From Platerodrilus igneus (lineage: Eukaryota; Arthropoda; Insecta; Coleoptera; Lycidae): a DNA stretch of 64,000 bases. The notes beneath the pieces were generated by a model that saw only the letters and a program-made list of their open reading frames with translations, had not been told where the DNA came from and did no database searches. Both the position numbers and the translations under genes were made by a program. Shown piece by piece: positions 18,762 to 59,286 of the stretch. The stretch is taken from the NCBI GenBank assembly GCA_036346225.1, contig JARFIW010001215.1:6586501-6650500 (forward strand), given 5' to 3'. Position 1 is the stretch's first letter; each line of letters starts with the position of its first letter.

Positions 18762-20243
18762 TGTTACGGTATTCCGTGCAAACACAAAAGAAAACAGTAA
18801 AAGTAAGTAAAGAAAGCGTTTACGCTGAATACCACAACAAAACAGGGACCGAATGATGGAATTCGTGCTAGCTCGAATACGTCGTAGAGGGGCGTGGGTC
18901 AAATAGAAAGAACACATTAGAAACCTCTGTAAAACTATATTGTTGACATACAATCTCGAAAGGCTATTTACAAAACAACAAAATCCAATAATTTGTGTAA
19001 TCGTTTGTTACGTGATGATAAACAAAGCGTCATAACATAACATATAAAATTGGTAAGCAAATATAACATCTTATAATCTAGATACTTACTTAATGCTTCA
19101 CCTTAAATATATACAAAAGAAAATTAAACATTAACTATACAGTACTTCTTGGAAAAGAAATATACATAACTTATATGTACATGCTGCATTGTGAAGGGCA
19201 CCTCCCCAAGAAATAGTATAACATTAAAATTAAACACCCTAACTTAAATTAATCAAATATTAACTACTTTCAAATTGATGGCATAAGTTCTTTACGATAA
19301 TGTCTGTACCAAAAGCACAAAAGAAACAGTAAAACGGACAAACTTTAATTGACTAATTTTTAACATAGTCGCTCGTGCATTGTGATTGTGTTTTGTAACG
19401 TGGTGTTGGTAATGTATTGGATAATCATAAGTAATAACAGCAAATGGAAAGTCTATTCTTCACCGCAGCATAAAAAAATAACGAAAACAGAAAACTGTAC
19501 CTTGAGCTATTGGCTTTGCGCTGGTATCATCTTGTGAATGGAAAAATATGGCTGCATTTCTTTATGGGCTGGATGCTGGAACCACCAACTTTACTCGTAC
19601 TAGCACAGAGAGCATTTTTAGTAGCGCGACTTTACAACATGTTTCTTCAGTAAGAAAATGTTGTATTCAATCCTCCTTTCAAAGCACGGTCTCTATTTTA
19701 TAAGGACAGAATCATGTATGGGAGTAGGTATTTTGGCTTTCAAAGATATCGTCGAAGAATCAAGTTTGCAGAATTCCCAGACAACAGCTGCCGAAATACA
19801 AACTGTAACAGCTTGCCAACAAGCAGATATCGCAATTATCAAAGGATTTTTAGACATAGGAAAGCAATCTTGTTACTTTGTAACATCTTAACAGCTGCAG
19901 AATAACAGTATACTTATAGATAAATAACCCATTGTAAGCAGATGTAGGTTGGAGGTAAGTGGCCTTATCTTTTAGAAGAAAGCTGTGCATTTATTTGCAA
20001 CTTTAATTATAATGTAATCACTGCAGGTGCTAGGAAATATTGCAACTACTTAGTAACGTATAGTTTCCTAAGCAGCTGTTTGATTTTATAAGGCAAACTT
20101 TTATATAGAGTAATTACTTGAGAAATTTTATAAAATACTGCTACACTAATTTCAAATGGTAGGAAATCGAGCTTGTTGAGAAATTTTTAGGGTGTTTTAA
20201 ATAGAATGCAGAAAAGATTGTTTGCAAGGTTTTGAACGTAACA
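18762..20243 (-). repeat. Left LTR (3' LTR by orientation), 1482 bp
   Basis: Starts TGTTACGG and ends ACGTAACA, so the ends form a short inverted repeat. It is nearly identical in sequence to 22109-23768 apart from the SINE and small indels. Confidence 0.85.
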
Positions 20244-22108: not shown

Positions 22109-23768
22109 TGTTACGGTATTCCGCACAGGCGGCTCCGTGGCATAGTGGTATGTGTGTGACTACTACGCCCAAGGTCGCGGGTTCGAATCCCGACACGGTG
22201 CGCTTGAAAAATGTTAGGCGAGCATTTTTTACAAAAATACACCCTCGTTCGGATGAGAGGTAAAATGGAGGTCCCATGTGTGAGTGTTGTCACGCACGTT
22301 AAAGATCCCTACCTTGCTTGGAACGCGAACACGAAAGAAAACAGTAAAAGTAAGTAAAGAAAGCATGTACGCTGAATATCGTAACAAAACAGGGACAGAA
22401 TGATGGAATTCGGGCTAGCTCAAATACGTCGTACAGGGGCGTGGGTGAAATAGAAAGAACACATTGGAAACCTCTGTAAAACTATATTGTTAACATACAA
22501 TCTCGAAAGGCTATTTACAAAACAACAAAATCCAATAATTTGCGTAATCGTTTGTTACGTGATGGTAAACAAAGCGTCATAACATAAGAATATAAAATTG
22601 GTAAGCAAATATAACATCTTATAATCTAGATACTTAATGCTTCACCTTAAATATATACAAAAGAAAATAAAACATAAACTATAAAGTACTTCTAGGAAAA
22701 GAAATATACATAAGTTATATATGCATTCTGCATTTGTGAAGTGCACCTCCTCTAGAAATAGTATAACATTAAAATTATACATTCTAACTTAAATTAATCA
22801 AATACTAACTACTTTTAAATTGATGCGTAAGTTCTTTACGATAATGTCTATACCAAAAGGACAAAAGAAACAGTAAAACGGAGAAACCTTAATTGACTAA
22901 TTTTTAAAATAGTCGCTCGTGCATTGTGATTGTGTTTTGTAACGTGGTGTTGGTAATGTATTGGATAATCATAAGTAATAACAGCAAATGGAAAGTATAT
23001 TTTTCACCGCAGCATAAAAAAAATAACGAAAACAGAAAACTGTACCTTGAGCTATTGGCTTTGTGCTGGTATCATTTTGTGGATGGAAAAATGTGACTGC
23101 ATTTCTTCATGGGATGGATGCTGAAACCACCAACTTTACTCGTACTAGCGCAGAGAGCATTTTTAGTTGCGCGACTTTACAACATGTATCTTCGGCAAGA
23201 ACATGTTGTATTCAATCCTCCTTTCAAAGCACGGTCTCTATTTTATAAGGACAGAATCATGTATGGGAGTAGATATTTTGGCTTTCAAAGATATCGCCGA
23301 AGAATCAAGTTTGCAGAATTCCCAGACAACAGCTGCCGAAATACAAACTGTAACAGCTTGCCAACAAGCAGATATCGCAATTATCAGAGGATTTTTAGAC
23401 ATAGGAAAGCAATCTTGTTACTTTGTAACATCTTAACAGCTGCAGAATAACAGTATACTTATAGATAACAAACCCATTGTAAGCAGGTGGTAAGTGGTCT
23501 CATCCTTTTAGAAGAAAGATGTGCATTTACTTGCAACTTTAATTAAAATGCAATCACTGCAGGTGATAGGAAATATTGCAACTACTTAGTAACGTAAAAT
23601 TTCCTGTGCAGCTGTTTTACAAGGCAAACTTTTATATAGAGTAATTACTTGAGAAATTTTATTAAATAACACTAATTTCAAATGGTACGAAATCGAGCTT
23701 GTTGAGAAATTTGTAGGGTGTTTTAAATAGAATGCAGAAAAATTGTTTGCAGGGTTTTGAACGTAACA
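22109..23768 (-). repeat. Right LTR (5' LTR by orientation), carrying a SINE
   Basis: The same LTR as 18762-20243, lengthened by the SINE at 22127-22324, which sits a few bases inside the TGTTACGGTATTCCG end. Confidence 0.85.
22127..22324 (+). mobile_element. tRNA-derived SINE, short copy
   Basis: The head (22130-22204) folds like a tRNA: GCTCCGT/ACGGTGC acceptor halves, box A GTGGCATAGTGGTA, box B GGTTCGAATCC with a CGGG/CCCG T-stem. The body shared with the copies at 34244 and 52238 follows (AAAAATGTTAGGCGAGCATT, CACGCACGTTAAAGATCCCT). It ends at CTTGCTTGGAACG, without the further 110 bp seen in the other two copies. Uninterrupted LTR sequence at 18762 shows the insertion point. Confidence 0.8.
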
Positions 23769-29944: not shown

Positions 29945-30264
29945 GAAGAGTATTACTGGCCGAAGATGAAATCGGACTTAAGTCGTTATATTAAAAGATG
30001 TGCTATTTGTTTAGCTACAAAGAGTAGTCCATTGTCGCATTCTGGATTGATGAGGAAGGAAACAGAGGTAAAACATCTCTTACAGATAATACCCATCAAC
30101 ATTATTGAACCATTATCTAGATTAAAGAAGGGTAACATGTATTTGCTATTTGCTTATGACTGGTTTACTAAGTACGTACTGTTCATTCGAAGCGAAAGGC
30201 TATAGCCAGTTCTATAAACAGCTTTCGAGAAATTCTTTTGTTTTATATGGAGTGCTTCAGATTA
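29945..30264 (+). pseudogene. Gypsy integrase: zinc-finger end and core start
   Basis: The + frame reads EYYWPKMKSDLSRYIKRCAI, with C-A-I-C giving the Cys pair, then the linker and the core start with KKGNMYLLFAYDWFTKYVLF, where the Asp of YDW is the first catalytic residue. After 30205 a stop intervenes. Text in another frame continues to 30264, where a solo LTR is inserted. In the family this enzyme joins element DNA to the host chromosome. Confidence 0.85.
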
Positions 30265-30890
30265 TGTTACATTCCAAATTTGGAGATGTACACTTTTAAA
30301 TTTGTGAGTAAATTCCCGCCATTATTTTAAAATAGACTTGTTTATTTCCGTCATTTCGGACAGTTGCGTCGGCGCAAAAAAATGCGCAGACGCGGAGTGA
30401 TGGGTAAGTGCGCGGTTTGGACACGACAAGTATTAGCCAAGGATACGTCGAACGGTGACGTTTGCCTGTATCTTTTTTGTCTTTTCTCTTTTAAAATGTA
30501 GGTTTTTCCCTTATCTTGCCTTATCGTTGCCTTCACCTTTATTCCTTTGCCCTACCTACGAACGAAGAAGAGGAAAGACGTTAAATCTGGTTTCAACGAG
30601 GGTATGACGTAATCCACACCAAACAACTTTAATAGACGAGATACCCTGAGGTTAGCATGACCCCTGCACAAGGATGACCTATAAAATCGTGAAGAGTTCC
30701 ACATTTTTAAGTGAGTACTTTTTATCTTTTTAAGGTGCAACTTGTATCATTGTATACGTATTTGACATGTGATACAATTTGACACGTAATTATGTCGTAA
30801 TATCTTTGTTGTGCAATAATGTGAACGTGAATAGTACCAGTGGTGCCAACTGTGGTAGTGGCTCTGTACACGCGACGCGGGGTTATAACA
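30265..30890 (+). mobile_element. Solo LTR (copy 1) with embedded U6-like sequence, target duplication ATTA
   Basis: 626 bp beginning TGTTACATTCC and ending GGTTATAACA. It is flanked by ATTA at 30261-30264 and 30891-30894 and breaks a Gypsy integrase whose reading continues directly on the other side. TG...CA ends and a 4-bp duplication are the mark of a Gypsy-type LTR. There is no internal region, so it is a solo LTR left by recombination between two LTRs. It shares GTTGCGTCGGCGCAA, AGCATGACCCCTGC and ATGTGATACAATTTG blocks with the reverse copy at 33014-33651. Confidence 0.85.
30640..30708 (+). ncRNA. U6 snRNA-like segment inside solo LTR copy 1 (not a functional gene)
   Basis: About 69 bases follow the central and 3' part of U6 spliceosomal RNA: GATACC...GTTAGCATGACCCCTGC, then CAAGGATGACC, AAAATCGTGAAG and GTTCCACATTTTT. 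U6 from animals has GATACAGAGAAGATTAGCAT, CCCCTGCGCAAGGATGACAC, AAAATCGTGAAGC and GTTCCACATTTTT. The ACAGAGA box itself has changed to ACCCTGAG, and the 5' stem-loop is missing, so it cannot be a working U6. The terminal T run is intact. The comparison with U6 is from general knowledge, not a search. Confidence 0.8.
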
Positions 30891-31557
30891 ATTATTACAG
30901 TTGACAACGGAACACAATTTACTACTAAAGCTTTCAAGCGGCTAATACAGAAATATAAAATTCCAAAAGTTTGGTACAATGTCAACTAACACCTGCAAAC
31001 CTACCAGTAGAAGGAGCAAACAAAGTCATCGCTACAGCCGTACGTTCATATGTGAAAAATAACCACAAGCTACGGGATGAAGAAGTATATAAAGTACCAT
31101 GCCATCTGTAATGCAGTTCGTGAAGTAACTAATTATACTCCGGCATTTTTGAATTTTGGCCGTTCCATACCAATTAATGGAGAATACTATGGAAACTGTT
31201 CGATTTTTCCGAGGAAGAGCTTACGGTTTAGTCTAGACAGCAACTGATTAAAAACTTAAACCAGCTACCAGAACTGTATAACAATATGAGGGAGATACTG
31301 CACCAGGCATATGTGCACAATAAACAAACTTATGATTTACAACGTCGTCCCGTGCGATACCAAAAAGGACAATTTGTATGGCAAAGAAATATGGCACAAT
31401 CTAAGGCTTCAGCACCAGTCTCTCAGTAGTTAGCACCCAAATATGTTTGTTGCCGAATCATAGAAAAAACAGGAACTGTCACTTACGTCTAAGGAATAGC
31501 AAGGGTAAAGATATTGGTGTTTGGCATGTAAAAGATCTGAAGCCAGATAGCTAATTT
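30891..31557 (+). pseudogene. Gypsy integrase: core end and C-terminal region
   Basis: The text restarts at the target duplication and reads VDNGTQFTTKAFKRL (second catalytic Asp), then PAFLNFGRSIP in another frame, then NKQTYDLQRRPVRYQKGQF, LAPKYV and finally GVWHVKDLKP before a stop at about 31550. This is the ordered C-terminal half of a Gypsy integrase. Several stops and shifts make it a pseudogene. Confidence 0.85.
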
Positions 31558-31560
31558 ATG

Positions 31561-33009
31561 TTTTGTAAAGAATGTTGTCATTCTCTTCGAGGTTAGTTGT
31601 AGAGGGGCTCACATTGATTGAAAATACTCTGGTGTACCTGTTGGTGTGGTTATTTGTTATGAGTTTCTCATGTGGGGAGTGGTCAGTGACTAACGATCGT
31701 TTACTCCTTAGACTACCTCATCTTCTAGTTGTAACAGTAAGATTCTCTGTTACTAGTTTGGAAAGTTAGGCAACTTTATGTGCATGCTTTATTATGTGTG
31801 ACCGAAAAGCTATTGTCAGCAGCTGTCATCCTATCGTGTGAGATCGAGAAGAGATGTGCAGTTCAGCTTGTTTGTGCAGAGCGCAGTTTCACACATCGTA
31901 CTGCTTTACTTTCTTAGTGTTGTGGTATACGATGTATTGCAGTCACCATGCCCGGTTCTTTTTGCTATTTTAACAAAGTTATGACCAGTTTGTTCAACTG
32001 CTAATTGAAATAATTCAAGTCATGTATGGGGTAAGGTTTTTCTTGTGCTACCAATTGTATTTCACTCATAAGGATGTAAATTTGTAGCAACTAGGAAGGG
32101 ATATATTCAACGCTTTCCATTTTATTCAAAGCGTCATATTGTTGCAGGGTTGGGATTCTAAGCACTAAATGGTTAGAGCCTCCTGATAAATTTGGGCATT
32201 GTATCTGTTGAACTGGAGTGATGCATTTAGTACGAAATACTATGTGTTGTAAATAGACGTTTATGAGAATTCTTTTTTTAGTTTGGTATTTAAAAAATTT
32301 CACTTTAGAAATATTCGAGTACCGGATCGTTCGACATCTGGGATCAACAGGTGTCAAGGCTACTTATGTCAACATCGTATTTATCAATCACCATTACTTT
32401 AATATAACTGATTCGACTTGAGTGCATTTAAATTGCTTTAATGAATAAATTATGCATTCGTTTAAGATATTTAACAAGCAATTTTTTAATCGACTGTAAT
32501 GCTGTTAACCGTACTTTTAGCTCAAGGTGTTGGTAAGTGATTCTTAACTTTTGGTTGTCAATTATTTTTTATTTTATTTTTAAAGAAGTGCCATATTGTA
32601 AATCTTATGCGGAACCTTTAAAACTGTAATTATTGATTTAATTGTATTTAGCATAAATGAACTTGGTGGTGGTTACTCAGCTGTTTTATTTAACAACCGT
32701 CACTTAACGAAATGCGGTATTAACTTTTATGGTGTTATTAAAGTATGTAACTTTTTATAGCTCCTATAGTGACAAACAAAGAACTCACTGAGGGATCTAG
32801 AGGTAAGGTCTCATTGTGGTGTCATTATTTAATCATTTCAAATAGTTGCTCTTGCATTTATAAAAATAAAACAAGGATTACTGTTCAGTGTTTCGAACAA
32901 GTATTAAACAGGTGCGGCCGTTACAAAGTCATTATTCAGGTTATATTTGAATTTTTTATCTGCAGCTGACATAATTTAAAACAAGCTCCTAACAACTTTG
33001 GATGTACAC
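31561..33009. other. No recognisable gene; may include the 3' region/LTR of the preceding Gypsy
   Basis: Follows the integrase stop directly, where a Gypsy 3' untranslated region and LTR are expected. I could not find a second copy of any part in the window to prove an LTR. Open frames here (31572-31769, 32091-32357, 32769-32969) have no recognised domain. Confidence 0.4.
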
Positions 33010-33013
33010 ATGT

Positions 33014-33651
33014 TGATATAGTCCCGGCCGTTATAGTCCCGCGCAACTGTTATGAGCTACTACGACAGTTGGCAACACATACTAACCACGTACACAATAT
33101 TGCACAACAAGATATTACGTCATAATTGCGTCTCAAATTGTATCACATACCAAAAATGTTTACAGTGATACAAGATGCGCCTTAAAGAAAAAGATAAAAT
33201 GTACTCACTTAAAATGTGTAACTCCTCACGATTTTGCAGTCATCCTTGCGCAGGGGTCATACTCTTCTTTGTCTGGGTGTTGTTGGGCGTGGGTGGGGCT
33301 ATGCCCTCGTTGAAAACAGATTAATTTGTCTTCCCTCTTTGTCGTCTGTAGCGGTACGGTAGGAACAAGGTCAAGGCAACGGTATCGGGTAGAGATAAAG
33401 GGAAACCTATATTATCTGAAAGAGAAAAGACAAAGGCACGACACAGGTAAACGTCACTGCTCGACGTCTCGTTGGCTAATCCTCGTCGTGTCGGAAACCG
33501 CACACTTACTTCCTCACTCCACGTCTGCGCATTCTCTTGCGCCGACGCAACTGTCCGAATTGACGAAAATTTAACAACTCTATTTTTAAAATATTGGCGC
33601 GAATTTACTCACAAATTTAAAACTGTAAAATGTCAATTTTGGCATGTAACA
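33014..33651 (-). mobile_element. Solo LTR (copy 2), same family as 30265-30890, target duplication ATGT
   Basis: 638 bp on the minus strand, starting TGTTACATGCC at 33651 and ending ...CTATATCA at 33014, flanked by ATGT at 33010-33013 and 33652-33655. Collinear with copy 1 over its whole length, with an extra GC-rich stretch (CCCCACCCACGCCCAACAAC) before the U6-like part. The last 30 bases contain a local duplication (GGGACTATA repeated). Confidence 0.8.
33211..33268 (-). ncRNA. U6 snRNA-like segment inside solo LTR copy 2 (not functional)
   Basis: The minus strand reads AAGAGTATGACCCCTGCGCA, AGGATGACTGCAAAATCGTG, AGGAGTTACACATTTT. This follows the 3' half of U6, and at CTGCGCAAGGATGAC and TGCAAAATCGTGA it is closer to U6 than copy 1 is. 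Sequence before it does not match U6. As in copy 1, AAGTGAGTAC follows at once. Confidence 0.75.
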
Positions 33652-33655
33652 ATGT

Positions 33656-34231
33656 CAGTAAATTTTCTTTATACCACTGACTGTCAGCAAATGTATTGGT
33701 CATAATATTACCGTGACCATACCTTAATAGTGTATTATCGTCAGGTCAGCCGTTCTAGTTTGGCGTCAATATCTTTACAATTTTTTAAATGCTTCTGCCT
33801 GCTAATTGTAAAATAGCTTAGTTAATACGTCACAATAATTTGGTCTGATTATCGTTACTGGAATGATATCTTTAGCATTAGGGAAGGAAATAATTGTAAA
33901 GTTAACTTTTGTATCCTAATGGAAGTCATCTGGTATTGATAGAAAATGTGACTATTATTACGTGTACAATAGCAGTTGTAGAGTAGAATTATTTTCGGAT
34001 GGCATGGCAGGCGACGTCACATGTGAATTAGGTTTGAATATACTTAAACATTAAGATTCAGCATGCTATAATACGACCTACAAACATCATGATGACATTA
34101 TATTTTTAAATGTCGTCACGAATACCACATTTATTGCGTAAAATAAAATATTGTTTAGAAAGTCCTCGTTTATGCTGACAGTATCTAGAAATGCATAAAT
34201 TCGCGAAATTAATCCAGATCATCATATACTA
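33656..34231. other. No recognisable gene
   Basis: AT-rich spacer between solo LTR copy 2 and a SINE. Nothing recognised. Confidence 0.45.
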
Positions 34232-34243
34232 TCAGAGCTTTCA

Positions 34244-34549
34244 CCACTACATTTGATTTTCTAATGCTTTGTTCGAAGGCACTACATTGGCCAGGAAGTG
34301 AATTTTTTACCTGGAATATTTTGAATTTTGCGAAACCTTTGCTGTTCCAATCAAGGTACGGTTCTTTAACATTGACAACACACACACGGAACTTCCATTG
34401 TCTCACACGGGACTTCCATTTTATCCTAACGAGGGCGTATTTTTGTGAAAAATGCTTCCTAACGTTTTTCAAATGGACCGCATTGGGATTTGAATCTGGG
34501 ATCTTAGGCATGGTAGTCAGACGCATATCAACTATGCCACGGAGCTGCC
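34244..34549 (-). mobile_element. tRNA-derived SINE, full-length copy, 12-bp target duplication
   Basis: 306 bp between duplicated TCAGAGCTTTCA (34232-34243 and 34550-34561). The tRNA-like head is on the minus strand at 34549-34475, with CTCCGTGGCATAGTTGATAT as box A and CAGATTCAAATCCC as box B. The body matches the copies at 22127 and 52238, and the tail region ends AAATCAAATGTAGTG without a poly-A. Confidence 0.85.
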
Positions 34550-34561
34550 TCAGAGCTTTCA

Positions 34562-35011
34562 TCGATAAATAATTGTAGGTTCATCGTTTCTTGTTCAGTA
34601 AAAATTTGCTGTAACACAGTGAACATACTCAGTTGATCATAATAGTGGACGCAATTGTCATTGTCATTCTCGTTCTTATGAACGCCTTATTCCGTTTCCA
34701 GTTTTTTATCAAGTCTTAGTCACAAAAACTAACTAATAGTAAATTTCTTCCGCAATGTAAGCATTTGAAAAGAATGCATGTTTAGTGGTTGATTAATTTT
34801 GATATTTTTTTAGAGTATATTATAGTTGTGAAAAGGCATCAACAACTATTAACAAAAATTTTGATTGTTAATAAGGTGCCTCTCCTCACGTAGGCTTTTT
34901 TAAGGTCGCCCACCTTCCGATAATAATACTACTGTATTTTTTATAATTAAATTAGCGCTAATTTTTCAAATAGAGGAAATTATATCATAACACTTGTTGC
35001 ACTTGGGCAAT
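34562..35011. other. No recognisable gene
   Basis: AT-rich sequence between a SINE and a solo LTR upstream of the TBL2 exons; no exon signal recognised. Confidence 0.4.
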
Positions 35012-35517
35012 TGTTATACTCGCGATATAATTCTTGCTAATTGTAACTTATACCGCACACGTTTTAAAAGTGATGCAACCGCTTTTTAAGTCAATTTGCA
35101 AGCACAATTTAAATCAAAACAGATTACTTACATGGCGGCATCTGGAAATTCGTTCCAGGGTCCCACGATGATTTTGCAGGTTGGGTTTAGTTTCCCATGT
35201 TGAATCAAATTACAATCCGTTCTTCCTCTTACTGCACTCGTAGGGGAACGATAGGAATTAGGTAACAGGTAAACTAGAAGATAAAGGTACAAGGAACCTC
35301 CATCCTAAAAAGAAAAGACACGTCACAGATAGATGTTGCTTCGTCAAGGGCTCGTAACTTAATTGCGTCTTATAACACCACGCGCGCACTCCGCATTCTT
35401 TTGCGCAGACGCGGCTGTCAGGGACGACAGAAATTGACATATTCATTTAAAAATATACGCGAGAATTTATTTACAAATGAAATATAACGTGATGCATGCC
35501 AGTTGGCATGTAAAACA
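35012..35517 (-). mobile_element. LTR copy 3 of the U6-bearing family, without a clear U6 segment
   Basis: The minus strand starts TGTTTTACATGCC at 35517 and ends GCGAGTATAACA at 35012. It shares the ends and the GCGTCTGCGCAAAAGAATGC, ACGTGTCTTTTCTTTT and CGTTCCCCTAC-type blocks with copies 1 and 2. Where they carry U6-like text, this copy reads TGCAAAATCATCGTGGGACC and then different sequence up to CATGTAAGTAATC. I found no target duplication (CAAT on one side, CTGT on the other). It ends about 275 bp before the first recognised TBL2 exon. Confidence 0.65.
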
Positions 35518-35792
35518 CTGTTGAGAAGGGTTTGCAAAAATTTGATAATTATAAATAAATTCTTAGACGTATACATGCTTACAAGCTATAATTTAAAAAT
35601 TAAGGTATTTGCTATTTTGTTTAAGATTTTCTTAGGTATAATTAGAAAAAGTTTAAGAATTCTTGGTATATTTACATAATGTCAAAATTTTTAAGGCTCA
35701 GTTGTAATAGATTTGGCTTGTACTGTGTTCTGTAAGTCATAATGACGTAATTTTCTATATTACAACATCCTTAATAATATTTTTGTCTACAG

Positions 35793-38321
35793 GTTCACGA
35801 CGAAGATATAATTGGGCTGGGAATAGCATGTAATGGAAAATTTATTATGACTTGTTCAAATAAGACTGATTTAATTATATGGGATTTACGAGGACAAGAA
35901 TTATCCAAAATCGATACTTACCTTATGAATACTTCCAGTGCTAAAATATCACCTTGCGGTCGATTCATTGTCGCCTCAGGTACTTTATTCACTATTTAAC
36001 AAACTTTAAAACTATTTTTTACAACAGGATTTGCACCTGATGTAAAAGTATGGGAAGTAGTGTTTAGTAAGTCTGGAGAATTTCAAGAAGTGAAGCGGGT
36101 ATTTGAATTATCAGGCCATACTTCAGGAGTTTATGACGTGGCGTTTGATGTTGATGCCTCTCATATTGCTACCGTTTCTAAAGATGGTACCTGGAAGCTA
36201 TTTGATACTAAAGGTAAGTTGTTCAATTGTTTTGACTATGCAGAAAAATTTTTGTAATTTGTAGTGGACTACAAACGTGGTGAAGATCCTCATTTAAAAA
36301 TAACAAGCAAGTATGAAACGGCTGGAAGTAGTGCCCATATTGCACTTTCCCCAAATGCAGAAGTGGTTGTGATTGGAACATACAACAGGCTGTCGTTTTA
36401 TTCTACTCTCACTGGTCAACTTGATACTGTGATTGAAAATATATTTAATGGTATTTAACATATGACCGTTGATCCTTATGCTTTATCGATAGCCATTTCT
36501 GATCCAAAGTTAATACTAGACCAAAAATTTGTTGTCATACTAGTTCATTTTGTATTTTTACTGCTTAGTTACCAACTACACAGTAGTATACTTTATGGCC
36601 ATAAAGACAGAAAAGAAACTGCTTCTGGTTATTTTATTAATAACTTTTAATATTTAACTATTAATAACTTTTATTAATAAAATTACAAAATATGAAAGAA
36701 AAGGATCGAGCCATTGTATAATTAACATTACATATTTGAATTCACATTAAAGTGACACTTTTGGAATGATCCCGTGATAGTTATACTCTTACTTTATTAT
36801 TTTCTTACTGATGGGGTTAATTGAATAATTAAAGTAACCCGTGGGTTCTTTAATATTCTCAGATGAAACCAGTGAACTTTAAGGAAGGATTTCCTTAAAA
36901 TGATGGAACGCAAATATCTTCCGACTATGCTAGGGCTATACTTCTGGTTAGAGCTTATGAGGATTGGTCGTGGTTCTTTTTACAAAACATTATTTACTTA
37001 CTATGGCTTAATTTATACCAAAATAAGGGTTGGGGTGGGCGCCACCAAGTCATTAAATTTTAAACACAGAGTTTCCCTAAGGGGGACTTGGGAATCCTTA
37101 GAGAGGAAAATTGTATTAACTGCTTACGCAGGAGCTGTAAAGAAAATTGAATTAAATTAACAAAGTGAAGACAAAAGAGGTATACTCTTGCTACCTCATA
37201 ATAAAAAAATGCCGAAAAGATTAATTATGCACACAATTTTATAGACACAAATATTAGGTATCAAATTCTGAAAGAGCTATCAGAGCTTCTTCGTTAAATA
37301 GGAGCTACAAATATCATTATCTCGAAGGTATTTGTGCCTTTTGTTCCTTGATTTAGTTGCACTATTTTTGGACTCACTTGTTCAAAATAAAACAATTAAT
37401 TAAATGAATTAAATGGTGATTCTTTAATTAAAAGTTGTCCAGCAAAGCTCGACATCGGCTCCTGAGGGTTCACGACACATCCTCTGCCAAATATCATGTT
37501 TGTCTTTTCTTAATAATTCCGAACTTAATCGTTATTCCCATTTCTCCTTCTCTTTTAAAAAGCTGTCTATGATTGGTTCAATGTCACCTATATGAACGAA
37601 TGATCATTGTTTCTGTGCTTTATAGTTCATACCAAAAGCTGGTCATTCGTTGTTTGCAACGCATTAAATTGTATGATGTATTATGATTCTGTAGTATTTT
37701 GTGAATTTATACATATATTATTGTGAACGGCTTTTATCGATACTTTTTCTAATTTAATACAAAGAGTGTAAAGTCCCAGTCTTTATTACTGGTTGTATTT
37801 AATACATATTCGGTGCTGTCCTGTTTATTTCTGTCGTACTTTAATGTAATGAAATAGTCACATTATTAATCTGAACTACGAAAGCTTCTATACATGTTTT
37901 AGGGTATTTTTGTCCCATGAGCTCATTTAACTAACTAATGTTTGCTTACGTAATGCGGTAGGGTTACACAGTCTTGTATATTACATTCATACTTATTTAA
38001 TAAAGTTTTAAGAAACTTCGTTAGTTAGGCAATTGTACGTCAAGGTTAAAACATAGCGATCAACTCGATATGCTTTGTATTAACATTTTTATTTCAGGTA
38101 GCGTAACTTCCTTACTCTTTGATTCTACAGGAAAATATGTACTAGCTTCTGGTGATAAATACATTAGAGTTTTTCATAATGTTACTGGATATCGTTGTGA
38201 TATTTCCACTGCCAAAGATAAGCTGAAATCTAATCAAACTTCAGCAACAAAGGAGCGCTTAGAGAAGGTGATACTAGAAAACGAAGCATTTTTGAAGAGC
38301 ATTGGTGTATCAGAACAATAA
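35793..38321 (+). CDS. TBL2: Transducin beta-like protein 2 (WD40 repeat), 3' four exons
   Basis: Exons 35793-35979, 36028-36213, 36265-36450 and 38098-38321 (stop TAA 38319-38321) join in one frame through GT...AG introns of 48, 51 and 1647 bp. The encoded part has WD40 blades with IMTCSNKTDLIIWDL, FAPDVKVWEV, SKDGTWKLFDTK, ALSPNAEVVVIGTY and ASGDKYIRVFHN, ending in a charged helical tail. The strings APDVKVWEV, KDGTWKL and RVFHN in this order are diagnostic of TBL2. In vertebrates TBL2 is a membrane-anchored ER protein linked to stress signalling through PERK; whether that holds here is inference. The part upstream of VHDEDIIGLG (N-terminal anchor and first blades, roughly 200 residues) is not found. 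The ATG at 36060 is internal and not the start. No breaks are visible, so this is probably a live gene. Confidence 0.9.
36451..38097. other. Third recognised intron of TBL2
   Basis: Donor GTATTT at 36451, acceptor TTTATTTCAG ending at 38097. It is 1.6 kb long, against about 50 bp for its two neighbours. Open frames inside (36462-36650, 36900-37160) show no recognised domain; the size suggests transposon-derived filling, but I could not match it. Confidence 0.8.
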
Positions 38322-39793: not shown

Positions 39794-39797
<4 letters not shown>

Positions 39798-40493
39798 CTA
39801 CCCCTTTTCTCTTTTTATACTTTTTACTTTTTATCAACTTAAAAAATGTGCACACCTAATGCACGCCCGATCTTGCACTGTTTGGTTGGTTCTTTTATTA
39901 CTTATTTATTTGCAATGCCTCGACTCTATAAAACTCTTAATCTCAGGGTATTCAAACTACTTATAGTGGATTCCGTTATAAGTAGATGTGCTACGTCCAA
40001 CCAAAATGCCCTCTTTTGTTTTACTACTAAAATTGCTACTCTACTTTTGTATATGCCAAAATTTATAAAATGATCAAAGTTGCTATGTGCCAAATGAAAT
40101 TACAACCAAAATTTGTATGACTAATTTTGACGTATTACAGAAATATGATGTTAAAACTCACCTGGTCTATACTCCGTTGATGCCTCGGTGAATCCTGGCA
40201 CAAAATCCTAATCCCCGTATGCGTCCTTACAATGATGTTCTCAACTTTTCGTGCTGTTTCCAGGTGTCTTCGAATTTTAACTGTTCCCCAATATCTGAAA
40301 TGATTAACCCAAATTTAGAATTTAGAAAAAATTAGTGCTATAACTTCCCCTTGTACTAATCTCCACTTCAAGTCCTTGTTTCTTCTATAATTCCGTCCGC
40401 TTCTCCGTATCTAAATCCCAATCCACTCGTTCCTGTATATTTTTGTTCGCTGCTCCTGTTGCCTTTAAACCGCTCTCCAATATCCCTTCAGAT

Positions 40494-40612
40494 CTCTGTA
40501 TAACCACTCTCGATAACCTTCTAACTTTAAACCACAATCCAATATCCACTTCAAATCTGTATAACCACTCCCGATGACCTTCTAACTTTAAAACACTATC
40601 CAAATCAAATAA
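40494..40612. repeat. Two tandem units of about 63 bp in the LTR
   Basis: TGTATAACCACTCTCGATAA and TGTATAACCACTCCCGATGA each lead into CCTTCTAACTTTAAA. The same pair lies in the right LTR at about 45372-45479. Confidence 0.7.
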
Positions 40613-40746
40613 TTTTCCGTCGCACAATCACTACTATTCCCTTTATACTCTCGATGTTTGTTTCTTTACCACTTTTCAATTAAACTCATTTAAAACAATT
40701 ACTTTTATTTTCTTTTTTTAAATATTTAAATACAAATTAGCACCGT

Positions 40747-40872
40747 TCTGAAAACACGTCTATTACAAAATTTGTTCAAAAATAATCTCTGAAAACACGT
40801 CTTTTACAAAATCGTTTCGAAAATAATCTCTGAAAACACGTCTTTTACAAAATCGTTTCGAAAATAATCTGC
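40747..40872. repeat. Three tandem units of about 43 bp in the LTR
   Basis: TCTGAAAACACGTCTTTTAC followed by AAAATCGTTTCGAAAATAA, three times, the first unit more diverged. Also in the right LTR at about 45624-45745. Tandem units in the U3 part of LTRs often act as enhancers; that role is inferred. Confidence 0.8.
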
Positions 40873-41725
40873 CTTGTTTACTCTCTAAGGCGACCATGTT
40901 GATTCTTTATTCGCCTACTACATCCTAAAGTTCATCACAAATAGTCAAGTCCGTGTCGCACATACCCAAGTTCATGTCTTTAATACAAAATCATAATCAC
41001 ACTAAATTCTAATATATGTCCTAAATCTTTACATTCAACCAATCACATTTTACGATGTTATTATAACTAATAATTTTGGGTTTACAAATATTGTCCAAAA
41101 GTTGATTCTATAGAAAATGAAACCAAAATTACACTTGACCCTGGATGCATGTTGATAGTGAACATTTACAGACGCATCCGGCTTTTGGACGGCAAATTTA
41201 CTTTCAAAGGCTTTTTAAAATTCAACTCGGTATAAACCCTTGAGCATTTCACATCTTACTACGCCACTTAGTCATTTTAAAATTGCCTTTTGGCACTGAA
41301 TTTCAACTACTATATTTGAATGGTATTTTAGTGTACATAAAATACGGCAAACATACATTTTTAAGTATATGTGATCGATTATGTGGATTATTTTTGTTTG
41401 GCATATACTATCTTGTACTAAACAACCCTTATAACTCTTAGTAGCTCCCTTAGACATTATATTGGCCCCACTGATTTTGAATGAAATTGGAAATTGCGTC
41501 GGCTTTACTCTTTCCTGGTGTGCATAATTTCTAGTTTTATTTAAAATCAAAACCCCTCTTACCTTTCTACACCAACCCCTTTTAGGCTTCCTATATATTT
41601 TAATTAATCAACCCCTATTTTTAATTCTCAACATGTCTGTCTAACTATGCTACATACTAACCTACCTTATAAACTAAAACAAAACTAAACTTTCCGTCGC
41701 ATGAACTATATAACAAACTATTCTA

Positions 41726-42683
41726 CTAAACCCTCTTCCTTGCATCCAAACAAATCCTTATATCCCTTTTATTTGGTTTAGGAACAATAACTACCGGGTT
41801 CACATATTGAGTTTTCGCTGGTTCTATTATTCCATCTCGTAACATCTTGTTAATCTCGGCTCTAACCCTATTTCTAATAGCAAACGGAATTGGATACACC
41901 TTTGTATTAAACCCGTTGTCTTCCGTGACCTCTAACTTATGCATGTATCGCCTCACCAATCTTGGCTCTTCATTAAATAACCCCACATATTTATTAAATA
42001 ATTCTTCTAGCTTCGCCCTTATCTCAATACTCACTCTTCCAATCTGTTCATCCTTAATTAATCTCACAAACATATTACATAATCGTACTTTAACCTGTCT
42101 ATCATCACTTGTCCTATCCATTCCTAATCCCGACTTATCTATATTATCTCCATTCCTATATTCCTCACTAACCGTAGACACCATCCATAACTTATCTTTA
42201 TCAAAAATTCGAATCGACCTATCTTTACCATCTATATTCACTCCAAAATCCTCTATAAAGTCCATTCCTAATATGAAATCTATATTCAACCCCTTTGTAA
42301 TTAAAAATTCTGCCTCCCCTACATTTTATCCCTACAAATATCGGTACACGGATGATCCTATAAATCGTAGTTAACTTTTTATTCATAGCCGACCATAGAT
42401 TAACCCCATCAATCGCTTCTATTCTTCTTTTTAAAAAATCAGCATGTTTTATCACCACCCTCTCATCTACCAGCGACAACTGTGAACCACAATCAATTAA
42501 AGCAACATATAAACACTCATTTAAACTAATATTAACGAACAAAAGATTCTTTTTTTTCAAATTATAATTATTTACTAACAAGTCTTTTAAACTATAAACA
42601 ACGTCGACCTTTAATCCTTTACATTTGTTCTCCCAAAAATTTGCGTTTTTTTTTTCTAAGGGTGCCTCGTGTATCTGCACCAC
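41726..42683 (-). pseudogene. Gypsy protease and start of reverse transcriptase
   Basis: Two overlapping minus frames, 42683-42225 and 42289-41726. The first has the protease active-site region VALIDCGSQLSLVDERVV; the catalytic triplet reads D-C-G where the family has D-T-G or D-S-G. The second starts with the end of protease (DFILGMDFIEDFG), runs through a linker, and reaches the RT start: YPIPFAIRNRVRAEINKML, DGIIEP, NPVVIVPKPN and RICLDARK. A stop follows and the RT catalytic YxDD region is absent. Both the deletion and the DCG change imply the product is not active. Confidence 0.85.
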
Positions 42684-42721
42684 TTCAATTTGATCCGTGT
42701 CCTGAGTCCTTGCGTTTGTCG

Positions 42722-43599
42722 TTATATGGTGGACATTCGCGTCCCTGTCCGTCCGGCTATATCCGTGCTGTGTACCGCCCCCTGTATTTCGACCGTCATC
42801 CGCGTTGTCGTCGCGCTGGTACCTGTTTTGTCTTGGTATGTCGTTCTCCGGTGTTCCCTATTGTAGTATGGTCTCCTGTTTCCGTCGTGTCCCCAGTGAT
42901 TTCGGTTTCCGTGGTTAAAATAGTCCTGTCGGTAGCTGGGTCGGTGTTCGTGATGGAAATTGTCCTGTCTATGGTTGGGTCGCTGTTCGTGGTACATATG
43001 TCGCCTGTTGTCATCCCTATAACCCCGGTTTTGATCCCAATGACTAGTCCGTGTTTTTGTCTCCAGTGCCGTTGCCAAATCGAAATTCCTCATAACGCCT
43101 AAAATTCCGCAGTGTTTTAACATTGTGGACCACAACCATTTTAGTCACTTCCGGCTCCATGTGGCCCGCATAGTAATAGTATGATGTCGTCCTCGTTCAA
43201 CTTTGGTGTCAAGTGCTGTGCCTGGTTGAACTTGTCTATCGCGTATTCTTCGCGAGTCCCGTGTGTCCGACTGTAGTGTCCTGTAATCAAATTGGTACGT
43301 ATGTCGGTCTGGTGCGTGTTGCTCCAGAACTGTTCCATAAATAGTCGTCGAAATTCCGCGTAGGTGTCCTACTGTCGGCGTATGATATTGTGCCACTTTT
43401 CCGCGTTCCCTGTCAATGTCGCCCCTACTATCTGTAACTTAGTTCGTTCATTCTCCGATTCGACGATCTCGTCCAGTCTGTCTAGAAATCCCATCGGCTG
43501 TTCTGTCTTCCGTCCTTCAAATTTTGGTAGCGCGTCCCTGTTAAATTTGATGTGCTGTCCGTAGTCCAGTCCAATGCGCCGTCGTTCTAGGTCGTCCAA
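42722..43599 (-). pseudogene. Gypsy gag, capsid and basic C-terminal region
   Basis: The piece 43599-43369 reads LPKFEGRKTEQPMGFLDRLD and then LQIVGATLTGNAEKWHNII, the typical retrotransposon gag (capsid-like) pattern where W marks the conserved aromatic of the A-x-x-W-x motif. The next frames (43338-43141, 43135-42722) carry HYSRTHGTREEYAID and a long Arg/His/Asn/Tyr-rich tract (HHEHRPSYRQDYFNHGNRNH), a basic RNA-binding tail with no CCHC knuckle visible. Frame changes near 43369 and 43141 break it. Confidence 0.75.
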
Positions 43600-43639
43600 T
43601 TTTTCATGTATTTGTCTTACGTCGTGTCCTACCGGTTTT

Positions 43640-44517
43640 CTAATACTGTGACTTTGTCGTCCAGTTTTCGTCCAGTTGCGTCTTAGTGTTCATATTTTCG
43701 GTCTGTATCGTCTCTAAGGTTTGTCCTAAATTTCTGTAGTTTGTCAAATGTCTTTTGTCGCATGTTTGAATTTCGGAATGTAACGTCGTAAAACCACTGA
43801 CCATTGTCTCCTCAACTGTCTCTACGCGTGTCTTGATTTCGGTCCGTAGATCCGTTTTTGTCGCGTTCAAGTCTCCCTGAATCTGTACCCGCGTGTTTTC
43901 TAATTTGTCATCTATTCTGTCAATCTTCTCGTGTACCTCAGTCCTTATGTCGTCCTTTACGTTTTGTATTTGTGTGAGTAGATAGTCCTGTGTATAATTC
44001 AGTTTAGCCGTCAGTTCCGCGTGTGCCGTCCTAAACTCGTTTCTCAGTTCGATGTGTGAATCTTCAATTTGGTTTGTTAAAGTCGTTTGTAAAGTCGTTA
44101 TTTTATTAGTTAGTTGCGTATTCGCCTCTTTTGTTCAATCTGTGACATTTCAAATTTGTTCGATAGTTCCGCCTTCAGTTCCGTGTTTGCAGTTTCAAAT
44201 TTGTTTGTTAAATTTGTTAGTTCCGTCTGTGAAGTTTTAAAATCGTTCTGCAAATTTGTTTGCAAGCTCATTATGAGTCGTATTAGGTCCTGGGTTCCGG
44301 CGATTTCTGCTACCCTTACCTCCGGTGCCGTCGGCTGGTCCGTGTCCTGGTCTGACGCCTCCGGGTCTGTCTGCCTCGCCTCCGTCTCCTGGATGTCTCC
44401 CCCTGCGTCTATCTCTATGTCCTGTGTCCTAATTTCATCGTTTAGTGTCGTGATTTCTGCTTCAATTCCGTATATCAGTCCCGATCTCGTAATCCGTTTC
44501 ATTGCTGGGTCCGTCAT
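43640..44517 (-). pseudogene. Gypsy gag N-terminal coiled-coil region
   Basis: Starts at ATG 44517 (MTDPAMKRITRSGLIYGIE). The acidic stretch IEIDAGGDIQETEARQTDPE and a long heptad-like series of polar repeats (LTNLTNKFETANTELKAELS) follow, predicting a coiled coil. It stops at 44110 and resumes in another frame to 43640 with more of the same type. The place just after the 5' LTR and the start context fit the beginning of gag. Confidence 0.65.
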
Positions 44518-44642
44518 CTCTGCAGCCTGTCTTTGTACTTGTATGCCTGAAAATATCTAACTACTGGCCCCACCTAATCTCAAGCTCCCGTATCCTACTA
44601 CTATTTCTGTCTAATTTCCACTCAATCTAGCCTTTTTTCAGC

Positions 44643-44664: not shown

Positions 44665-46329
44665 TATTCTACCCCCCCTTTTTCTCTTTTTTATACTTTT
44701 TACTTTTTATCAACTTAAAAAATGTGCACACCTAATGCACGCCCGTACTTGCACTGTTTGGTTGGTTCTTTTATTACTTATTTATTTGCAATGCCTCGAC
44801 TCTATAAAACTCTTAATCTCAGGGTATTCAAACTACTTATAGTGGATTCCGTTATAAGTAGATGTGCTACGTCCAACCAAAATGCCCTCTTTTGTTTTAC
44901 TACTAAAATTGCTACTCTACTTTTGTATATGCCAAAATTTATAAAATGATCAAAGTTGCTATGTGCCAAATGAAATTACAACCAAAATTTGTATGACTAA
45001 TTTTGACGTATTACAAAAATATGATGTTAAAAACTCACCTGGTCTATACTCCGTTGATGCCTCGGTGAATCCTGGCACAAAATCCTAATCCCCGTATGCG
45101 TCCTTACAATGATGTTCTCAACTTTTCGTGCTGTTTCCAGGTGTCTTCGAATTTTAACTGTTCCCCAATATCTGAAATGATTAACCCAAATTTAGAATTT
45201 AGAAAAAATTAGTGCTATAACTTCCCTTGTACTAATCTCCACTTCAAGTCCTTGTTTCTTCTATAATTCCGTCCGCTTCTCCGTATCTAAATCCCAATCC
45301 ACTCGTTCCTGTATATTTTGTTCGCTGCTCCTGTTGCCTTTAAACCGCTCTCCAATATCCCTTCAGATCTCTGTATAACCACTCTCGATAACCTTCTAAC
45401 TTTAAACCACAATCCAATATCCACTTCAAATCTGTATAACCACTCCCGATGACCTTCTAACTTTAAAACACTATCCAAATCAAATAATTTTCCGTCGCAC
45501 AATCACTACTATTCCCTTTATACTCTCGATGTTTGTTTCTTTACCACTTTTCAATTAAACTCATTTAAAACAATTACTTTTATTTTCTTTTTTTAAATAT
45601 TTAAATACAAATTAGCACCGTTCTGAAAACACGTCTATTACAAAATTTGTTCAAAATAATCTCTGAAAACACGTCTTTTACAAAATCGTTTCGAAAATAA
45701 TCTCTGAAAACACGTCTTTTACAAAATCGTTTCGAAAATAATCTGCCTTGTTTACTCTCTAAGGCGACCATGTTGATTCTTTATTCGCCTACTACATCCT
45801 AAAGTTCATCACAAATAGTCAAGTCCGTGTCGCACATACCCAAGTTCATGTCTTTAATACAAAATCATAATCACACTAAATTCTAATATATGTCCTAAAT
45901 CTTTACATTCAACCAATCACATTTTACGATGTTATTATAACTAATAATTTTGGGTTTACAAATATTGTCCAAAAGTTGATTCTATAGAAAATGAAACCAA
46001 AATTACACTTGACCCTGGATGCATGTTGATAGTGAACATTTACAGACGCATCCGGCTTTTGGACGGCAAATGTACTTTCAAAGGCTTTTTAAAATTCAAC
46101 TCGGTATAAACCCTTGAGAATTTCACATCTTACTACGCCACTTAGTCATTTTAAAATTGCCTTTTGGCACTGAATTTCAACTACTATATTTGAATGGTAT
46201 TTTAGTGTACATAAAATACGGCAAACATACATTTTTAAGTATATGTGATCGATTATGTGGATTATTTTTGTTTGGCATATACTATCTTGTACTAAACAAC
46301 CCTTATAACTCTTAGTAGCTCCCTTAGAC

Positions 46330-46335
<6 letters not shown>
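44665..46335 (-). repeat. Right LTR (5' LTR by orientation)
   Basis: Nearly identical to 39794-41461, including both sets of tandem units. The few differences I saw are single-base changes or homopolymer indels (for example CGATCTTGC versus CGTACTTGC near the left end). Confidence 0.85.
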
Positions 46336-49121: not shown

Positions 49122-49268
49122 TTTTAGGTAATTTTTTTTTACACAAGGTAAGTTGATAAATACTAATGCATTACAATTCATAAGATGAAATAATAATTTT
49201 GACTTTTATGCAAAGCCCAAATGATCATTTCAAATCGAGCTAGTAATTGAAAGAAGGAAAATATAAGG

Positions 49269-49337
49269 TCTTGGAAAGGATTTGAACCTGCATATCAGTT
49301 TTGCCTGAACTGTGCGTTTACCAATTACGCCACCAAG

Positions 49338-49338
<1 letters not shown>
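49269..49338 (-). tRNA. tRNA-like sequence, probably a SINE head or tRNA pseudogene
   Basis: The 70-nt minus-strand segment folds as a tRNA. The acceptor pairs TCTTGG with CCAAGA, the D stem pairs GCGT with ACGC around AATTGGTAA, the anticodon stem pairs CAGTT with AACTG around a 7-base loop CAGGCAA, and box B is a perfect GGTTCAAATCC. The T stem is weak. The loop has A instead of the invariant U33. The central triplet would be GGC. It touches a TA microsatellite on its 5' side. A functional gene is unlikely; a SINE or retropseudogene is more so. Confidence 0.45.

Positions 49339-49389
<51 letters not shown>
49339..49389. repeat. (TA)n microsatellite
   Basis: TA run directly beside the tRNA-like segment. 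Confidence 0.9.
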
Positions 49390-57329: not shown

Positions 57330-59286
57330 ATGAATACATTTACGGAGCACCGAAAAAGACAGGACAAAACTTCAGTGTGGAATCATTTTTTGATTGAAAA
57401 AAACGGACAGGTTGCTAAATGTAAAAAGTGCGCGAAAGAAATAAAGTGTACAGAAGGATCCACAAGTGGCCTTCATACTCACTTAAAAACGATACATGGA
57501 CTAAATCTTAAAAAGTAATGTGAATACCCCCATGATGTCGAATCAAGTGTTTCCAAACAGCCTAAATTGTTAATAACAAATTATTTTAAAAATAATAAAA
57601 ACGAAAAACTTTCAGAAGTGCTTGCCCGAATGACAGCTCGCGATGGTCTGTCTTTTAATATTTTTATAAAATCGCATGACATAAGAGAAGGTTTAAAGGC
57701 AAGAGGATTCAAAGACATACCAAAATCTGCAGTCACTATTAGAAATATGGTACTTGAATATAGTAAAATTATTAAACAGTCTACAGTGCATGAAATTTCT
57801 AGACTGATATCTGAAGGTAAGCGTTTCAGTATCACATTTAACGAGTGGACATCTATTCGTAATCGGCGCTACATAAACATTAATGTACATTCTGTTGGAG
57901 GAACAATGTGGAATATCGGATTAGTGCGCGCTTACGGATCTGTTCCAGCAGAAAAATGCTTATCCCTTGTAGAAGAAAAATTGAAAGATTTTAATTTAGA
58001 TATATTTAAAAACATAGTTGGAGTAACTACTGACGGTGCGTCGGTTATGGTATAAATTAGGAAAAATTATAGAGGCTGGACATCAACAATGTATGGCACA
58101 TTGCATAAATTTAGCAATTACTGATGTTTTGTATAAGTCAACTTTGAACCCGAGTGTGGATATTGATGTTGTGGAGCAAAATTATAATGATGACGATGTT
58201 AATGATGTTGACGATGACGATGATAACAATGACGACAATATCGACGAAGAAGATGGTAATGGAATTATTATAGAGTTAGATGCTAGTATTACTACAAGTA
58301 TTATAAATATTAGACATATTGGTATATCATCTCTAGTTTCAAAAATTCGGAAAGTAGTGAAAACATATAAAAATTCACCTTCTAAAAATGATAAATATTT
58401 ACAAAAGTACGTGAGAGAACAATTAGGTAAAGAAACAGCGCTAAAATTAGATTGTCAAACAAGATGGAACAGTATGTTATTTATGTTAGAAAAATTTGAT
58501 GAAATTAAATTTTGTATTCAAAAAGCGCTTATTGACATTAGTTCCGATATTCATTTTTCTGACGAAGAATTTAATTTATTATCTTCAATTATTGCTGCTC
58601 TTACTCCTGTAAAATTAACAGTAGATGCATTATGCCGAATAGATGCAAATCTTTTGACGGCTGAAGCTTCTTTAACATTTATGTTAGATACTCTTTCCCA
58701 GCAAAAATCTGCAATTGCATTAGAATTATTGGAAGCATTAAAATCTCAAATTTTACTGCGACGCACTGAATTATCACGAATACTTCAGTATCTGCAAAAG
58801 GGCTCACAAGATGTTGGAGAAGTATTTAAACGCGTATCCAAATTTACAATCATTAAAAAAATTGCAAGCTTAACTAAATGGCTCACACATGAAAATCTAG
58901 AAGATACAGAAGATATGGAAGTTGTGCAAGAAACATCCCTTCCAATATCTTCCCAAATTAGTAATGAAACAGTATTAGAATCTGACAAGGTAAATGTAAG
59001 CGCATTAAAGAAAAAACTACAGGCAGCAATAGACGAAACACTAAATACTTCACCCGTGCCTGCTTTTAAAAAAATTCCAGGTCTGGAACAAAAAATAAAT
59101 GATGAAATTACTTTTTTTGAAAAAACAGGAACAAAAGGAACGTATATACAAAATGTGTATGGTTTCTTAATGACAATAGTGCCGACAAGTGTAGAATCAG
59201 AAAGAGCTTTTTCGGCGACTGGTTATATTTGTACGAAAATTCGGTCCTCGCTTGATGATGAAACGATTGATTGTTTATGTTTTTAA
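57330..59286 (+). pseudogene. hAT transposase, one stop and one frameshift
   Basis: Start ATG 57330. Residues 1-62 are a BED zinc finger (VWNHF, CKKCAKEI, LHTHLKTIH), after which TAA at 57516-57518 interrupts; the same frame then continues. DKSA... the core has RFSITFNEWTSIRNRRYINI and GVTTDGASVMV (catalytic Asp), then a one-base shift near 58050 leads into the second frame, with HQQCMAHCINLAI, an Asp/Asn-rich stretch (about 58160-58260), CQTRWNSML and the C-terminal dimerisation motif VPTSVESERAFSATG, with KIRSSL near the end. Order and spacing match full-length hAT transposases of about 650 residues. Confidence 0.9.

Follow-up and report, generated by a model that had tools for sequence, protein, structure and literature searches.

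LTRs in the window

The window, meaning the whole 64,000-nucleotide stretch of Platerodrilus igneus DNA that was analyzed, contains two long terminal repeats (LTRs) carrying a piece of U6 spliceosomal RNA sequence and a sister LTR without it. The features are as follows.

30261..30264, + strand: left target site duplication, ATTA
30265..30890, + strand: solo LTR of a Ty3/Gypsy-like family, subfamily 1, 626 bp, with TG...CA ends and a 4-bp duplication
30649..30708, + strand: U6 snRNA-derived piece, U6 nt 48-107 with the terminal T run
30711..30716, + strand: splice-donor-like GTGAGT, 2 nt past the U6 piece of the first LTR (putative function)
30891..30894, + strand: right target site duplication, ATTA
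33014..33651, - strand: second LTR, subfamily 2, with its own duplication at 33010-33013 and 33652-33655
33203..33208, - strand: splice-donor-like GTGAGT past the U6 piece of the second LTR (putative function)
33211..33267, - strand: U6-derived piece of the second LTR (left limit set by eye)
~35012..35517, - strand: sister LTR without U6 (no end duplication seen, right end uncertain)
35126..35131, - strand: GTAAGT of the sister LTR, corresponding in position to the donor-like site

The preliminary description had read the first of these as a 626-bp solo LTR, and this reading holds: TG stands at 30265 and CA at 30890, with ATTA on both sides. This LTR sits in what is presumably a decayed integrase-like frame. 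Its right flank reads IITVDNGTQF.., which we take to be an integrase-like motif, and its left flank ends GVLQ in the matching frame and has stops further up, as read with the flanks not joined. The second LTR lies in the opposite orientation and is 77.9% alike to the first. Its 4-bp duplication is ACAT on its own strand and ATGT on the + strand.

With the Rfam U6 model (gathering score 44), the whole window gave a match at 30605-30708 (+) with 52.7 bits and an E value of 2.1e-10. A looser search of 30000-36500 gave 33210-33308 (-) with 41.9 bits, just below the gathering score, and an E value of 4e-8, and the covariance search proposed in the preliminary description is thus significant in both LTRs. 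As had been claimed, the U6 segment lies inside the LTR, since the reverse copy, with its own duplication, bears it at the same place. The segment had been delimited as 30640-30708. The part from 30649 to 30708, about nt 48-107 of U6, is surely U6-derived, whereas 30640-30648 (GATACCCTG) is somewhat closer to the U6-less sister LTR, with mixed results among tests.

Several other repeats were seen in the window. Two 1.67-kb direct copies at 39794-41461 and 44665-46335 are 99.2% alike, with frames between them (41726-44556, -) that look protease/RT-like by eye; together they are probably a young LTR retroelement. For hAT transposase-like frames at 57519-59286, identities to database relatives reach 95%, and one entry from Rhodnius prolixus shows 91% identity over 30% of the query, which hints at a recent spread among arthropods. 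There is also a 1.47-kb direct repeat (18778-20243 and 22325-23768, 92.7% alike) and a tRNA-like Rfam match at 49267-49339 (-) with 42.6 bits, either a gene or a SINE head.

Genome copies of the U6-bearing LTRs

We searched the 2.71-Gb genome with both LTRs, each query containing U6 and each search scoring its best 40 to 48 candidates. For the first LTR, the best 40 of 6,581 candidates, the query locus included, were scored, and the U6 piece was found in all 40 as well as in the second LTR, with local identities of 80-100% over 44-74 columns. Perfect 4-bp duplications flank 15 of the 40 loci (chance, 0.006 per locus). For the second LTR, 42 of 6,958 candidates were listed and 16 loci were fetched, the second LTR included; each of these 16 has the U6 piece, with 53-58 of 61-67 columns alike. 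The genome collection suggested in the preliminary description therefore has U6 at the same place in the best 40 of 6,581 matches and in 16/16 fetched subfamily-2 loci. Among these best-scoring matches, none shows flanks and U6 part as independent insertions.

The two U6-bearing subfamilies differ by a K2P distance of 0.17-0.29. In a FastTree tree rooted on the first two sister copies found, the 41 U6-bearing copies group with a support of 0.85, all but the second LTR with 0.63, and all but the second LTR and one further copy (L008) with 0.998, as printed after rerooting. The family is large and high-copy, and U6 was gained before the split of the two subfamilies seen here. The claim that capture preceded the spread of the family is supported, as U6 is common to both subfamilies at the same LTR position. 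The Rfam gathering score is passed by 32 of the 40 first-LTR loci, so counts of U6 genes would be inflated in such genomes.

Structure of the element

Two copies with both LTRs (C81 and C652) were read in pieces. Their interiors, of 6.1 kb and 2.7 kb, have gag-, protease-, and RT-like frames; the LTR pairs differ by K2P distances of 0.060 and 0.075; and AACA lies on both sides of the two-LTR element C81, whose gag-like frames have zinc-knuckle-like cysteines by eye. Pfam matches were obtained in three of the seven interior pieces searched. Between the LTRs L017 and L020, the piece L033 matched RVT_1 (2.5e-18 and 9.3e-12) and Asp_protease_2 (4e-5). The protease precedes the RT and both are in the orientation of U6, which makes U6 sense relative to the element. 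In the parts read, the coding sequence is split over several frames. By resemblance, the element looks like a Ty3/Gypsy-like LTR retrotransposon.

Seven of the 40 first-LTR loci are followed by GTG.C(G/A)C(C/A)TAAAC, a presumed primer binding site with a variable fourth base, and were read as 5' LTRs, and five share a common left flank and were read as 3' LTRs. At all five junctions examined, the 100 nt preceding the 3' LTR contain no purine run of at least 6 and have T-rich runs instead, and a canonical purine tract is absent from these old copies. T-rich sequence in place of a purine tract was seen before the 3' LTR at L032, L010, L019, L023, L025, and L036, and L032 has a second GTGGCGCCTAAA about 120 nt upstream of the 3' LTR.

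A sister family without U6

The sister LTR of the window is related to the U6-bearing LTRs along its whole extent, with a local score of 775, against at most 513 in 30 shuffles, and nhmmer E values between sister and U6-bearing LTRs range from 3.9e-22 to 9.1e-14. In the two LTR halves, the two families differ by a K2P distance of 0.64-0.69. A search with the sister family listed 42 of 3,976 candidates, and eight loci were fetched, that of the window included. U6 is absent from all eight of these, taken from the 42 listed. One sister copy, in L004, is a solo LTR flanked by ATAT at each end, and a U6-bearing LTR interrupts it. The eight fetched loci have ...ACCCTGAGACGAATTTCCAGATGCCGCCAT ahead of GTAAGTAAT with small changes, the window copy having ACCCTGGAACG, and GTRAGT is altered in two of the eight (L053 and L054). 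The lack of U6 in 8/8 fetched sister loci indicates a gain after the two families split, which, judged from the copies compared, would make the gain old, but later than this split.

The right end of the sister LTR is uncertain because several copies repeat GTATAACAATTG there: this sequence or a near form of it recurs beyond the matched end in L048, L051, L052, L054, L055, and L057. Opposite the sister LTR, at 34993-35114 (+), lies a weak U4-like match (22 bits against a gathering score of 46; E value, 0.087), which is probably due to chance.

Host U6 sequences

A genome search with the U6 model gave 253,027 loose candidates, the best 48 of which were scored. Half of these 48 have 70.5-113.1 bits over 98-112 nt, and the 12 of them that were read look like U6 genes or near copies; the ACAGAGA box is present in 11. 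These dozen near full-length U6 copies (L059-L070) are dispersed and have differing upstream sequences. The other 24 have 61.9-65.6 bits, and in 22 of these the match covers 61-63 nt. Nineteen of this lower-scoring half were examined (18 fetched and L008), and 18 proved to lie within the U6-bearing LTR family; the remaining one (L083) is a separate, truncated U6 copy outside this LTR. An exact match to host U6 nt 48-107 was found in 14 LTR copies, namely 13 of the 17 fetched and L008, which is one of the earlier 41. These copies were chosen by their U6 score, so their identity shows origin and not constraint. L083, which is not an LTR, and the partial or split copies L075, L081, L082, L084, and L088 were left out of the divergence count.

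Junctions of the U6 piece

At the right junction, the T run of U6 is followed by AA and then by GTGAGTAC. At the corresponding position, the sister LTRs show GTRAGTAAT, which is their best donor-like site, with 8/9 consensus positions in both copies scanned; as many as three copies of GTRAGT itself are present in these LTRs. When the alignment of this site was compared with shuffles, a sister copy designated LTR3b gave 2/500 as good with the second LTR and 34/500 with the first LTR or L008, and the sister LTR of the window gave 197-372 of 500 with U6-bearing LTRs. By this alignment test, homology of the donor-like site is well supported solely for LTR3b with the second LTR.

The left junction reads CCCAGACGAAGAAGAG.. 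in many subfamily-2 copies and ACCCTGAGATTAGC.. in many subfamily-1 copies, and the sister has ACCCTGAGACGAATTTCC. Judged by eye, the simplest reading is that LTR sequence runs to about GACGAA, where U6 takes over at nt 46-48, and that subfamily 1 later underwent a small loss. The left arms of four CCCTG copies align with the sister locus L051 such that only 21-27 of 1000 shuffles are as good, as opposed to 758-768 of 1000, the chance level, with host U6 nt 1-50. Such CCCTG left arms match six of the eight sister loci, with 1-24 of 300 shuffles doing equally well, and fail for two, and no convincing match to the eight sister loci was obtained with CCCGG, CCCTA, or subfamily-2 left arms. In earlier left-arm comparisons, LTR3b with L035 gave 3/500 shuffles and the other 11 comparisons gave 110-500 of 500.

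A piece reaching back to U6 nt 35-41 was considered and is judged the less likely reading. Several subfamily-2 copies have ACAAAGA or ACGAAGA at the left junction. As these are one or two changes from ACAGAGA, they may be a changed ACAGAGA, and the box was possibly captured too and then altered.

Origin of the U6 piece

We consider it likely that the LTR family bears a piece of host U6 through a template switch of a reverse transcriptase and that this piece is now a passenger without U6 function. Among the roles that the preliminary description had offered for the segment, that of passenger sequence from template switching fits best. While copying the element RNA, a reverse transcriptase would have jumped onto a U6 snRNA molecule at its 3' end, extended over about 60 nt of this template, and then returned to the element RNA. 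Retention of the U6 3' end and loss of the 5' part are what such a pair of jumps would leave. By eye, U6 would thereby have taken the place of about 17-20 nt of LTR immediately ahead of the donor-like GTRAGT, in a part of the LTR that we infer to lie within the transcribed leader of the element. Replication would then have placed the piece in both LTRs, and it would have traveled on as a tolerated passenger.

The ingredients of such an event are described for other systems. Particles of MLV and RSV contain about one U6 each, and packaged host RNAs recombine during reverse transcription (PMC4997597). In LINE template switching, U6 is the favored partner, and for U6/L1 chimeras no internal starts were observed (PMC4476161, section 6). 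Against a template switch stands the distance of the sister family, at the K2P values given above, with no relative caught in mid-capture. A search of viral contigs for the exact U6-LTR junction gave 0 matches.

It is rather unlikely that a LINE first placed a U6 pseudogene into one genomic LTR copy that later became the founder of the family. Mammalian genomes are well known to contain U6 copies made by LINEs (PMC4476161, section 6), and at least one truncated U6 copy (L083) lies outside the LTRs in this genome. Against a LINE-made founder, the U6 end has no poly(A) in the copies read, though age could have erased it. Further, the longest word common to the left and right flanks is 3-5 nt in seven copies; here the left flank as compared stopped some 10 nt before reaching the preferred junction, so this test speaks weakly against LINE insertion, and a duplication, too, could have been erased by age.

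Sequence constraint and possible function

The U6 piece as a whole varies as much as the remaining LTR, with a pi of 0.121 against 0.098 elsewhere in the LTR. Divergence among 40 copies is 0.145 for U6, 0.121 to its left, and 0.077 to its right. The least variable stretch is LTR positions 451-475, just past the U6 piece (pi, 0.020), and within the piece no position of the last 13 nt (U6 nt 95-107) departs from U6 in more than 10% of 41 copies. Stem pairs are often broken, and 33 of 41 copies have C in place of A78 of U6. Two-sided standard changes are seen in one copy at each of two of the ten stem pairs. The share of cells that pair is 80% for the ISL and 71% for the 3' stem, compared with 20-62% and 10-49%, respectively, when slid. 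A kept RNA structure was rejected on the basis of the broken pairs, the near absence of compensatory changes, and the change of A78 to C.

The LTR copies read contain no exact ACAGAGA, and the U6 5' part with its 5' stem-loop is also absent from them. The piece, being the 3' part of U6, has neither an upstream promoter nor an internal pol III promoter. Since the promoters of U6 genes are located upstream, a promoter role for the LTR piece is unlikely. The LTR-like variation, the broken pairs, and the lack of the 5' stem-loop, of an exact ACAGAGA box, and of a promoter argue for passenger status.

The alternative, that the U6 piece was kept as an RNA-protein handle (La/Lsm on the U run), as a terminator, or as a leader structure, appears unlikely. 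Its persistence in two subfamilies agrees with such a function, as do the little-varying last 13 nt and positions 451-475; the ISL and 3' stem also pair above the slid control, though this is expected from U6 origin alone. The overall variation of the piece and the breaking of stem pairs in many copies, with two-sided changes as rare as stated, count against a kept function, and the exact-U6 copies, picked by U6 score, are no evidence of constraint. For the last 13 nt together with the neighboring donor-like site, the pattern of variation leaves a modest chance of some role.

A possible link to splicing

With the left junction as preferred here, the U6 piece would start within 1-2 nt of the 3' edge of ACAGAGA; it adjoins GTRAGT, and ACAGAGA pairs with donor sites of the GTRAGT kind. 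On this basis, capture could have occurred through splicing, and the LTR would be a fossil of U6 at work on a retroelement RNA, which we regard as distinctly improbable. U6 would have been held on the leader donor of unspliced RNA and copied from its 3' end up to the helix or, alternatively, joined through the spliceosome back-reaction. A U6 intron of fission yeast is thought to stem from reverse splicing (PMC10484740). As GTRAGT occurs up to three times in the LTRs and the tests of the left junction are mixed, the fit to splicing is possibly a coincidence.

That the likeness to U6 is a matter of chance, or that U6 was inserted independently beside the LTR, is scarcely conceivable: the E values of 2.1e-10 and 4e-8 rule out a chance match, and the reading of the genome copies, with U6 at the same place in the best 40 of 6,581 and in 16/16 fetched loci, together with the two-LTR element, rules out a position beside the LTR.

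Relation to known elements

LTRs that carry small-RNA sequence are known from several families. Cassandra is a non-autonomous plant TRIM with 5S rRNA sequence in its LTRs and an internal 5S promoter (PMC10853983 and PMC10886601). The U6-bearing family resembles it in having a piece of a host small-RNA gene fixed in the LTR of a multi-copy family. It differs in that Cassandra is non-autonomous with a 5S promoter, whereas the U6-bearing element has a broken gag-, protease-, and RT-like interior and the 3' part of U6 brings no promoter. Helenus and Ajax (TRIMp3) are TRIMs whose LTRs have tRNA-like or 5S-derived parts, and animal Helenus makes 4-bp duplications (PMC10886601). They thus share with the present family both LTR sequence derived from small RNAs and, for animal Helenus, the length of the duplication, but as TRIMs they are short and probably have a pol III promoter, while the U6-bearing element has a coding-like interior and no such promoter. 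In a word search of the full text of PMC10886601, "snrna" and "small nuclear" occurred 0 times; its author speculates about 7SL.

In mammals, U6/LINE chimeras arise via template switching, with U6 and U6atac favored among snRNAs, and Giles 2004 is cited for snRNA copies associated with LTR elements (both from PMC4476161). Here U6 is likewise joined to a retroelement, but the mammalian copies are described as single insertions; in the present case, a whole family of elements inherits the piece as part of its LTR. Retrozymes carry a hammerhead ribozyme inside their LTRs that is active and used in circularization. They resemble the present family in having an RNA motif in the LTRs, and the U6 piece differs in giving no sign of activity.

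No LTR family bearing an snRNA was found in the literature searched, which comprised titles and the beginnings of abstracts of the top-listed papers. The earlier statement that no such capture was known to be fixed in an LTR is therefore uncontradicted for snRNAs in this material, but it needs the qualification that LTRs bearing 5S and tRNA sequences are known. If our interpretation is true, it would extend small-RNA-bearing LTRs from those with pol III promoters (5S and tRNA) to a promoterless spliceosomal RNA and to an element that has a coding interior. It would also provide sequence evidence that an LTR can take up, as a heritable component, a host snRNA of the kind that retroviruses package.
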